Below, piece by piece: positions 35,638 through 38,866 of a stretch of 64,000 nucleotides of DNA. Source of the stretch: Ferrovibrio terrae. Lineage in GTDB: Bacteria; Pseudomonadota; Alphaproteobacteria; Ferrovibrionales; Ferrovibrionaceae. The stretch is taken from positions 1,896,001-1,960,000 of the forward strand of contig NZ_CP041636.1 in assembly GCF_007197755.1 (NCBI RefSeq). The letters are read 5' to 3'. Made by a program: the position numbers and the translations under genes. The notes below the pieces were generated by a model. The model saw only the letters and a list, made by a program, of their open reading frames with translations. It did not search any database and was not told the origin of the DNA. Position 1 is the first letter of the stretch, and the number at the start of each line of letters is the position of its first letter.

Positions 35638-36270
35638 ATGCCGACCACCGCAAACCTGCTGGCCTTTGCCCTTGTCGCCCTCGGCATGGTGCTGACGCCG
35701 GGTCCGAACATGATCTACCTGATCTCGCGCTCGATCTGTCAGGGGCGCGTGGCGGGCCTGATCTCGCTGGGCGGCGTGGCGCTTGGCTTCGTCTTCTACA
35801 TGCTGGCCGCTGCCTTCGGCATCACGGCCCTGCTGCTGGTGGTGCCTTACGCTTACGAGGCTTTGTGCTACGGCGGCGCGGCCTATCTGTTGTTCCTGGC
35901 CTGGCAGGCGATCAAGCCCGGCGGCCGCTCACCGTTCCAGGTGAAGGAACTGCCGCAGGACAGCCCGCGCAAGCTGTTCACCATGGGGCTGATCACCAAC
36001 CTGCTCAATCCCAAGATCGCCATGCTGTACCTCTCGCTGCTGCCGCAGTTCATCAATCCCGAGCAGGGCAACGTGCTGGGCCAGTCGATCACGCTGGGCT
36101 TCGTGCAGATCCTGATCAGCGTCAGCGTCAATGCGGTGATCGCCATTACGGCGGGCAGCATCGCCGGCTTCCTGGCCGGTCGCCCCGTCTGGCTGCTGGT
36201 GCAACGCTGGCTGATGGGCACGGTGCTCGCCGGCCTCGCCGTGCGCATGGCGCTTGAAGCCAAGCGCTAA
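35638..36270 (+). CDS. LysE/RhtB-family amino-acid exporter
   Basis: 210 residues with six hydrophobic helices. The family start FALVALGMVLTPGPNMIYLISRSI is present, with GGVALGFVFYMLAAAFGI and the conserved NLLNPKIAMLYLSLLPQFI. Members export amino acids or related small molecules; the substrate is unknown. The GST gene starts 4 bases after the stop, so the two are likely co-transcribed. Confidence 0.88.
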   Translation: MPTTANLLAFALVALGMVLTPGPNMIYLISRSICQGRVAGLISLGGVALGFVFYMLAAAFGITALLLVVPYAYEALCYGGAAYLLFLAWQAIKPGGRSPFQVKELPQDSPRKLFTMGLITNLLNPKIAMLYLSLLPQFINPEQGNVLGQSITLGFVQILISVSVNAVIAITAGSIAGFLAGRPVWLLVQRWLMGTVLAGLAVRMALEAKR

Positions 36271-36916: not shown

Positions 36917-36959
36917 GGATTATTATCTAAATACTTTGAGCCACAGTTTGAAAGTAAAG

Positions 36960-37142
36960 CTATGCTTTCTTTCTCACTGGCTGATCAGTATGAGGCGAGC
37001 TATCGCGAAGCTTTCCAGAACTTCCAACCTCTATGGATCGAGCTTGATCTTTCATCCATTGAGGCCAGCTATCAAGCTCTTTTGAAACCTGGTCAAGTTG
37101 AGCTTTTAGCCACTCACTTCCAATCTTTGGCTTTTCGCTCAT
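36960..37142 (-). CDS. Small ORF coupled to the antiphage deaminase
   Basis: 60 residues, start ATG at 37142. GGAGGAG lies about 7 bases before the ATG, and the ATG shares its A with the deaminase TGA (TGATG), so translation is coupled. The product is charged and soluble: the first half (GSEWLKAQLDQVSKELDSW, then PQWMKDQARS) looks like amphipathic helix, and the tail is Lys/Arg-rich (PVRKKA). I do not recognise it. It could be a regulator, inhibitor or co-factor of the deaminase. Base composition matches the AT-rich insert, not the flanks. Confidence 0.6.
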   Translation of the reverse strand: MSEKPKIGSEWLKAQLDQVSKELDSWPQWMKDQARSIEVGSSGKLRDSSPHTDQPVRKKA

Positions 37143-38773
37143 CAGAGTTCTCCTCCAGCAGTCGCATGGCCGAAGCCTTTAGCTTCAAGCGTATTTCTGA
37201 GTGCCAACTTAGCCATCTGCTCAATGAAGATGTAGGAGGGGACTAACCGCTTTAACCGAGGAAGTGCGGCTGCGGGTTGCCATTCAACTGCATCTCCATT
37301 GTCTATTTTGCGTTTGGTTTTCTCAAACAAATCCATAAAACGGCCTGGAGCTATGCCAATAAAAGGATCAAACGTCACATGATCGGATTCTATTCCACTG
37401 TCAACGCGAATAGAATCCCTATAAAGGCCTTTTGCCATGCTTTTTGGGTAAGGCTCAATGTAGATCACCCTTTTAATTCCCGCCGCGACGATATGTCGTG
37501 CGCACATGTGACACGGGAAGGTTGTGCAGTAAAGCTTCGCTTCTTTTAAAGGGGTGCCTCTTCTGGCGGCATCGGTAATCGCCGCCATTTCGGCATGGAC
37601 AATTCGGCCAAACTCCAAAAGTTCGGAAATTCGTGTTCCTCGTAAAGGCCGAGCAGTTCCTCGAAGTGCTTGCTCAGCTAATTCAGCCGCATCTAGTTCG
37701 ACTTTTTCATCCGTTAGCCATTTAGATTCTTTCAAGCGCTGCAAGAGTTCTTGCAACAATATTTGTTTATTCTTGGCGCTAGAGTCGTAGCCAACTTTAA
37801 AGTCGCGAGCATCGTTATTGTCTCCATCCCAATACAGGCCACCGCCAAATTTTGGCACCTCATTGCAGCCTACGGATAGAAGGTCGCCATCTGTTGTGGT
37901 TATTGCCGCACCTACCTGCCTTGATAGATCAGCAGATCGCAGCGCGGTTGCTCGCGCATAAAACATCGCCAATTCATCTTTTGTCGGTGTGTGGAATGGA
38001 TGGCCAAAAATGAGTTCGACGAAGCGGCGCAAAGATTTTTCAACAGTGGCCTTCTCTGTCGCAACGATAAAAAGATCTGCAAGCGGGAAGGTATCTCTGA
38101 CTCGTTGTCCATACTCAACATTGGCCTCTTCTTCATCCCAAACGATCAGTTCCTCTGCTTTCGGTAAATACTCGTCGGACCCTGGAGGTTTGTGTCTGGA
38201 CTTTGCAATTTTCTCCGCCAGAGCGGATTTGCGGGAGTCTCTTGGGGCAGTCGCAGCGACAAGATAAAATGCGCGGCCATATATATTCCGTAAGACCTCA
38301 ACTTCCTCAGGGTGTTTTAACGACCGAATGATATAGGCTTGTCTTTTTGCAGGGCTGTTTGGATCTTGAGTCAGATTGGCGCGTTCAGCAGAAATCTTTG
38401 CCGAAGACAGTAATGCAAACAGGTCTTCGCCCAACTCTCCGCGCAGCCTCGTCCCAGCTTGCATATGTGTTGAATAGCGCTCGTCTTCCGGACCGGAAGT
38501 GGGGAGGTCGGAATCTAAGATGTGCATTAATTGGCTAATCTGCACTAAGCAGGTCTTGTAATTTACCCGGCCTAATTCTTCCTCAAGAACATGTGAGACC
38601 ATATTTAGATCGGTCCCAATTGGTCCGACTAAGCCAAATACCAGTTCGGGACCGGTTAACGGCTCGAGGCTTTTATGAGCAGTTTTCTGTTGTGGGGTGC
38701 GGGCAGCTTTATCTCGTGCCCGCTTTTCCGCGTGCTTAGTCTTTTTCGGAATTACTTTTGAGCGATTCGCCAT
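37142..38773 (-). CDS. Antiphage dCTP/dCMP deaminase (AvcD/DCD type)
   Basis: 543 residues from the ATG at 38773 (a GTG two codons earlier is possible). After a basic start, residues ~42-260 form a P-loop-NTPase-like domain beginning ELVFGLVGPIGTDL, a Gly-rich loop without the usual GK(S/T). The C-terminal half is a cytidine-deaminase fold with the zinc site HAE (His393, Glu395) in IVHAEMAAI and FPCHMCARHI (Cys421, Cys424). This NTPase-plus-deaminase layout and length match the AvcD family, which on phage infection deaminates dCTP/dCMP and starves phage replication of deoxycytidine nucleotides. The gene is markedly AT-rich (25 G+C in the 60 bases from 37681), which suggests transfer. Confidence 0.85.
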   Translation of the reverse strand: MANRSKVIPKKTKHAEKRARDKAARTPQQKTAHKSLEPLTGPELVFGLVGPIGTDLNMVSHVLEEELGRVNYKTCLVQISQLMHILDSDLPTSGPEDERYSTHMQAGTRLRGELGEDLFALLSSAKISAERANLTQDPNSPAKRQAYIIRSLKHPEEVEVLRNIYGRAFYLVAATAPRDSRKSALAEKIAKSRHKPPGSDEYLPKAEELIVWDEEEANVEYGQRVRDTFPLADLFIVATEKATVEKSLRRFVELIFGHPFHTPTKDELAMFYARATALRSADLSRQVGAAITTTDGDLLSVGCNEVPKFGGGLYWDGDNNDARDFKVGYDSSAKNKQILLQELLQRLKESKWLTDEKVELDAAELAEQALRGTARPLRGTRISELLEFGRIVHAEMAAITDAARRGTPLKEAKLYCTTFPCHMCARHIVAAGIKRVIYIEPYPKSMAKGLYRDSIRVDSGIESDHVTFDPFIGIAPGRFMDLFEKTKRKIDNGDAVEWQPAAALPRLKRLVPSYIFIEQMAKLALRNTLEAKGFGHATAGGEL

Positions 38774-38866
38774 CCCCACCCAGCCCGATTCGCGAGGTGG
38801 AGATTAGCAGGAATTTTACACCTGACGTTAATTGAAGTGCGACATAATATGGTACTCGGGTAACCA

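Follow-up and report, generated by a model that had tools for sequence, protein, structure and literature searches.

A DCD/AvcD-type antiphage deaminase gene of Ferrovibrio terrae and its translationally coupled small gene, a putative inhibitor gene

The window analysed here, a stretch of 64,000 nt from Ferrovibrio terrae, carries a gene whose product does belong, by sequence, to the known family of antiphage dCTP deaminases (DCD/AvcD); this gene is followed by a coupled gene for a 60-aa protein (Table 1). Judged by computation, small genes of this kind are real and are linked to these deaminases in other bacteria. We propose that the two genes may form an antiphage module consisting of the deaminase and a cognate partner, most likely a labile protein inhibitor in the role of the AvcI RNA, a reading to which we give about an even chance.

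Table 1. Positions of the deaminase gene, the small gene and associated features in the window.
Feature	Position	Strand	Remarks
Predicted DCD/AvcD-type antiphage dCTP/dCMP deaminase gene	37142..38773	minus	543 aa + stop; P-loop kinase-like domain about residues 44-256, deaminase domain about residues 263-488
Small partner gene	36960..37142	minus	60 aa + stop (MSEKPKIGSEWLKAQLDQVSKELDSWPQWMKDQAR...); start codon ATG overlapping the stop codon of the deaminase gene (TGATG)
GGAGGAG, Shine-Dalgarno-like sequence of the small gene	37150..37156	minus	7 nt before the ATG; read from the sequence
Insert DNA 5' of the deaminase gene, presumed promoter and leader	38774..38866	minus	93 nt; probably too short to hold a separate AvcI-like RNA
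AT-rich insert, variable chromosomal site between two convergent host genes	36919..38865 (approximate borders)	none	from GC content and comparison with congeners

The reading frame of the deaminase gene (minus strand, 38773-37142) is uninterrupted over 543 aa. Its product matched the NCBI equivalog model 'anti-phage dCTP deaminase' (NF041025) with 462.1 bits against a curated cut-off of 400 bits and over nearly the full length of the model (profile positions 1-435 of 437), as well as the PADLOC dCTPase model (8.8e-163) and phrog_9198 (3e-102); these family matches are far beyond chance. The PF00383 deaminase domain was also present, whereas ComEB and the other housekeeping models of the profile search stayed far below their cut-offs. 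An earlier note on this DNA had proposed an AvcD-type antiphage deaminase, to be checked by profile search and to be given up if an ordinary dCMP deaminase or ComEB matched best; since those models match far worse, the proposed identity holds at the level of the family models.

The same note had described an N-terminal P-loop domain joined to a C-terminal zinc deaminase, and this architecture was recovered in the structure prediction that it had called for. The AlphaFold2 model (57 sequences) had a mean pLDDT of 90.7 and a pTM of 0.88; its residues 44-256 matched adenylate-kinase-related P-loop proteins (3lw7, Z = 16.7 over 169 residues) and its residues 263-482 matched dCMP deaminases (5c2o, Z = 18.7 over 144 residues; a Foldseek list was also obtained), and no solved structure matching both domains together was found by sequence. 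The model thus confidently predicts an NMP-kinase-like P-loop domain at the N-terminus and a dCMP-deaminase domain at the C-terminus. The motifs HAE (residues 393-395) and PCHMC (residues 420-424) are intact, and the zinc/catalytic residues H393, E395, C421 and C424 were invariant in an alignment of 64 proteins. The P-loop string GLVGPIGTDL (residues 47-56) does lack the usual Lys, from which a different nucleotide sensing had been suspected. However, none of the relatives in this alignment carries the Walker Lys in the corresponding loop (one has Lys residues slightly further along, and one lacks the region), therefore the unusual P-loop is a trait of the family and not of the window member, and it can no longer be taken as a special feature or as a sign of altered sensing.

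We were first led to the small gene by weak DNA matches 3' of the deaminase gene in two relatives. The deaminase gene had been said to stand alone, but in fact the TGATG overlap couples it to a conserved small gene, which accompanies it in relatives. Similarly, the span of 37142-38773 given for it correctly ended at the deaminase stop, but this stop overlaps the start of a second gene that had been missed. The small protein was modelled as two helices (residues 7-24 and 26-40, block pLDDT 74-90) with a low-confidence tail. It had no family match in Pfam, NCBIfam or PADLOC, contained no recognisable antitoxin or DNA-binding domain, and had no match at E<=1 in the plasmid collection. A 94-aa ORF on the plus strand (36962-37246), antisense to the small gene, was considered as well and was set aside, having no family match and no credible relative.

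Previous studies reported that AvcD deaminates dCTP and dCMP and is inhibited by the AvcI RNA (PMC10511110), that phage-induced transcription shut-off removes AvcI and frees AvcD (PMC10511110; PMC12409362), and that AvcD over-produced without AvcI leads to filamentation (PMC9455884). The AvcI transcript of V. parahaemolyticus is about 280 nt long (PMC10511110), whereas the insert provides only 93 nt on the 5' side of the window deaminase. No space for a separate AvcI-like RNA was apparent there, although one that extends into the adjacent host gene is possible. Between positions 36000 and 40000 nothing credible was found with the Rfam models tried, a set without the AvcI model: the only matches were to miRNA and viral-leader families, far under the gathering scores. 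Folding 5' of the deaminase gene was at the level of shuffled sequences, and 3' of it, where ToxI-like tandem repeats were sought, there were only short imperfect repeats.

Because AvcD is restrained by AvcI and so little DNA is available on the 5' side, we favour the small protein as the inhibitor. The chemistry, the phage protection and the release by transcription shut-off are taken here from published work on relatives: the active deaminase would convert dCTP and dCMP into dUTP and dUMP, and the loss of dCTP and dCMP would starve a replicating phage of deoxycytidine nucleotides. The small protein, whose synthesis would be tied to that of the deaminase by the TGATG overlap, would keep the enzyme silent, as the AvcI RNA does with AvcD in Vibrio, and when a phage shuts off host transcription the labile small protein would be lost and the deaminase freed. 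We infer only from this comparison that the small protein is labile and that it acts as an inhibitor and not as an activator. Counted against an inhibitor are the enzyme-first order, the lack of a recognisable antitoxin domain, the poor conservation and the relatives with no detectable partner. An enzyme-then-partner gene order is less usual for an antitoxin.

The main rival to an inhibitor is a positive factor, i.e. a sensor, an activator or a subunit that is needed for the response to infection, and we consider such a role rather unlikely. Fixed-ratio coupling through TGATG and the conserved linkage would be equally compatible with a subunit and with an inhibitor, and the order of the two genes, atypical of antitoxins, would suit it. 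However, the known relatives consist of AvcD and the AvcI RNA without a protein activator (PMC10511110), and no partner was detectable in several relatives of the window's own clade (L022, L038, L059 and L140).

Less probable still is an ordinary single-gene DCD beside which the small gene is a hitch-hiking accessory, serving element maintenance or counter-defence and having no direct role in control. The models of the defence databases (PADLOC dCTPase, NF041025) do comprise a single gene, and the relatives in which the small gene is undetectable would agree with such an accessory; against it stands a linkage that spans several proteobacterial lineages, prophages and a plasmid. Related small ORFs (roughly WLxxQLxxAxKExxxWPxWK) were found directly 3' of related deaminases, their products being poorly conserved (about 15-31% identity to the small protein of the window). 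A five-protein HMM gave four matches in 240 genomes, namely one new strong match 32 nt 3' of a deaminase gene (G221), two training sequences, and one inside an unrelated frame with a stop. A second profile, run on 385 alphaproteobacterial genomes, had strong matches only beside deaminases, which again argues against a hitch-hiker, in a search that scored first-look candidates only and may miss rare other contexts; seven weaker matches were inspected and looked like chance. With a 10-sequence HMM, the top three of 4,812 ORFs from 41 further loci were all directly 3' of a deaminase gene, one on a Vibrio nigripulchritudo plasmid (6.4e-6, the sole one significant by itself) and two in closely related prophages. 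The more distant deaminases (22-40% identity) had no 3' ORF except for this plasmid. The plasmid ORF lies at L157:2918-3097, where the plasmid gene table lists no gene, so a protein partner also occurs in the genus in which the AvcI RNA was found.

Moreover, the linkage appears to survive a change of position, which speaks against a mere accessory. In the Rhizobiales branch, most deaminase genes had a 45-90-aa ORF immediately 5' and on the opposite strand. Thirteen of these divergent ORFs were taken as one set (R1), and when a profile made from R1 only was run against 14,738 ORFs, the seven best non-training matches were all small ORFs 3' of other deaminases, a zone that holds only about 2% of the ORFs searched. 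Profile comparison of R1 with the 3' type gave a local E of 7.3e-5 over 29 columns (probability 62%). We read R1 and the 3' type as probably one family, which moved between a 3' collinear and a 5' divergent position while staying with the deaminase. Nineteen other 5' divergent small ORFs (R2: L050, L056, L060, L057, L070, L080, L052, L064, L069, L072, L062, L065, L068, L082, L058, L048, L071, L054 and L061) had no detectable relation to the R1/3' family, and the R2 pairs tested had protein-type substitution patterns. The members of R1 and R2 were picked by eye, so their scores with their own profiles are true by construction, and the independent evidence comes from the cross-search and the untrained loci. 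Among the 41 further loci, partners were found for R1 in L106 and L143 and for R2 in L146-L149 and L151-L156, mostly prophages; L141, L144, L108 and L150 are near-copies of training loci. In a quick tree of the deaminases, the labelled 3' and 5' types fell on the two sides of one branch (SH-aLRT 99).

It is very improbable that the active product is instead the RNA of the small gene, acting as an AvcI-like antitoxin and containing an ORF by chance. AvcI is indeed an RNA (PMC10511110), and the folding of the 3' part of the small gene is somewhat more stable than that of shuffled sequences (z -1.84), but the small ORFs behave as protein genes. In 13 small-ORF pairs, substitutions were commonest at third positions, and dN was lower than dS wherever dS could be computed; a Shine-Dalgarno-like sequence was located at 45 of 51 small-ORF starts, versus 16% of random ATGs. 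In addition, the similarity among the small genes lies at the protein level, and Rfam offered nothing credible. What is expected of a protein antitoxin, a linked small gene selected as a protein, was thus observed, the selection having been measured on pairs of relatives and not on the window gene. A further pair of small ORFs was seen on an E. coli plasmid (NZ_CP148280.1, L098:705-887) and a Klebsiella plasmid (NZ_CP033778.1, L158:1195-1377), each an annotated hypothetical ORF of 60 aa just 5' of a deaminase gene, with a dN of 0.40, a dS of 1.38 and a third-position excess between the two plasmids, as for a protein. This is the side on which the AvcI RNA is described.

We further presume, with confidence somewhat short of even, that DCD/AvcD enzymes outside the Vibrio-type systems are commonly under small protein antitoxins, i.e. 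the family found in 3' and 5' divergent positions and, in other Rhizobiales, a second, unrelated 5' divergent family. If this is true, the toxin-antitoxin type would have changed while the toxin stayed the same, proteins having replaced RNA as the antitoxin of this antiphage enzyme.

A housekeeping dCMP deaminase or ComEB-like competence protein, which would share the PF00383 domain, is scarcely credible and already largely refuted, for the product scores above the cut-off of the curated antiphage model and far below that of ComEB, carries an N-terminal kinase-like domain, and has no full-length homologue in any of the nine other genomes of the genus, its gene sitting in a variable AT-rich insert. 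This insert of about 1.95 kb has 46-53% GC against mostly 60-70% in the flanks, and both it and the housekeeping-type neighbours of the deaminase gene were as the earlier note had them. Two congeners (G001 and G002) align on both flanks and have other cargo in the same gap, which is bounded by a glutathione S-transferase gene and a small host gene: in G001 a PIN-like protein (PIN_10, 77 bits) paired with one that just misses the HTH_66 cut-off, and in G002 a protein without a Pfam family. In G008 the transferase is also missing and the two flanking stops are about 10 nt apart (empty site), and G005 has two other genes at the site, one of which looks by eye like a fatty-acid desaturase. The site is a small hotspot, empty in one congener and filled with other genes in three. 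No integrase was seen at the site and no tRNA gene in the window. The claim that the window holds no other defence genes stood for the seven neighbours between about 33.5 and 41.6 kb, the scope of our check, where only weak generic HTH matches of a MarR-like regulator were found. At the same site, the G001 PIN_10 protein and its upstream partner (L093:6239-7428) are a possible toxin-antitoxin pair, and the gene without a Pfam family of G002 lies at L092:8258-9798; the site may merit mining for small defence cargo.

Compared with known systems, the window deaminase resembles DCD (NF041025; PADLOC dCTPase) in its full-length match over the cut-off, its two domains, its invariant catalytic residues and its Lys-less P-loop, but DCD is modelled as a single gene whereas a translationally coupled small gene follows the deaminase gene here. 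With AvcID of Vibrio it shares the type of enzyme and probably the need for restraint until infection, but the window has no visible separate AvcI-like RNA on the 5' side and has a conserved small protein gene on the 3' side; we therefore do not class it as AvcID, whose AvcI RNA is encoded 5' of avcD. The dCMP deaminases of S. mutans (5c2o), phage T4 (1vq2) and human (2w4l) have the fold and zinc-site motifs of the C-domain, but the matched chains cover this domain only and those enzymes have no kinase-like domain; we know of no small partner for them. The AdkA-like adenylate-kinase-related protein (3lw7, 3h0k) has the fold of the N-domain with 16% identity, but the deaminase family of the window lacks the Walker Lys at the aligned loop. 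Two-gene protein toxin-antitoxin modules likewise have a small partner coupled to a potentially toxic enzyme at a variable site, but the partner in the window has no known antitoxin domain and its binding to and neutralisation of the enzyme are putative, and we do not class the pair as a type II module.

The deaminase itself belongs to a known family, and the two-gene organisation is an apparently undescribed variant. No description of such a small partner was found in the open-access literature, a search outside which the founding 2022 papers lie, and its novelty is likely, not proven. Catalogues list each antiphage dCTP deaminase as a single gene, and the control of these enzymes has been established for the Vibrio type with its RNA restraint. 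A conserved small partner, hidden so far beside the deaminases of many Alphaproteobacteria and of some further lineages, would affect the annotation, cloning and testing of these systems, and a deaminase cloned alone could appear toxic or inactive. It also raises the question of whether the restraint of a single defence enzyme can fall to an RNA in one lineage but to a small protein in a different one.

When characterizing the partners, we observed that the one at L017:6544-6726 matched phrog_38465 (9.1e-6), a phage family of uncharacterised proteins. Small proteins of this kind may therefore occur away from deaminase loci too, a further point against our favoured reading; the L017 protein could be either a prophage-borne deaminase partner or a phage mimic. 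We also looked for copies of the partner in phages with tblastn, which gave weak matches in Pseudomonas phages (E 0.07-0.6), and the inspected match in PAK_P5 lay inside a much longer phage gene and was judged to be due to chance. Finally, two deaminase homologues (L067 and L079) came from a record labelled uncultured Cenarchaeum (OY282369.1); they branched among the bacterial ones and the letter make-up was odd, which would reflect either a mislabelled record or a transfer.
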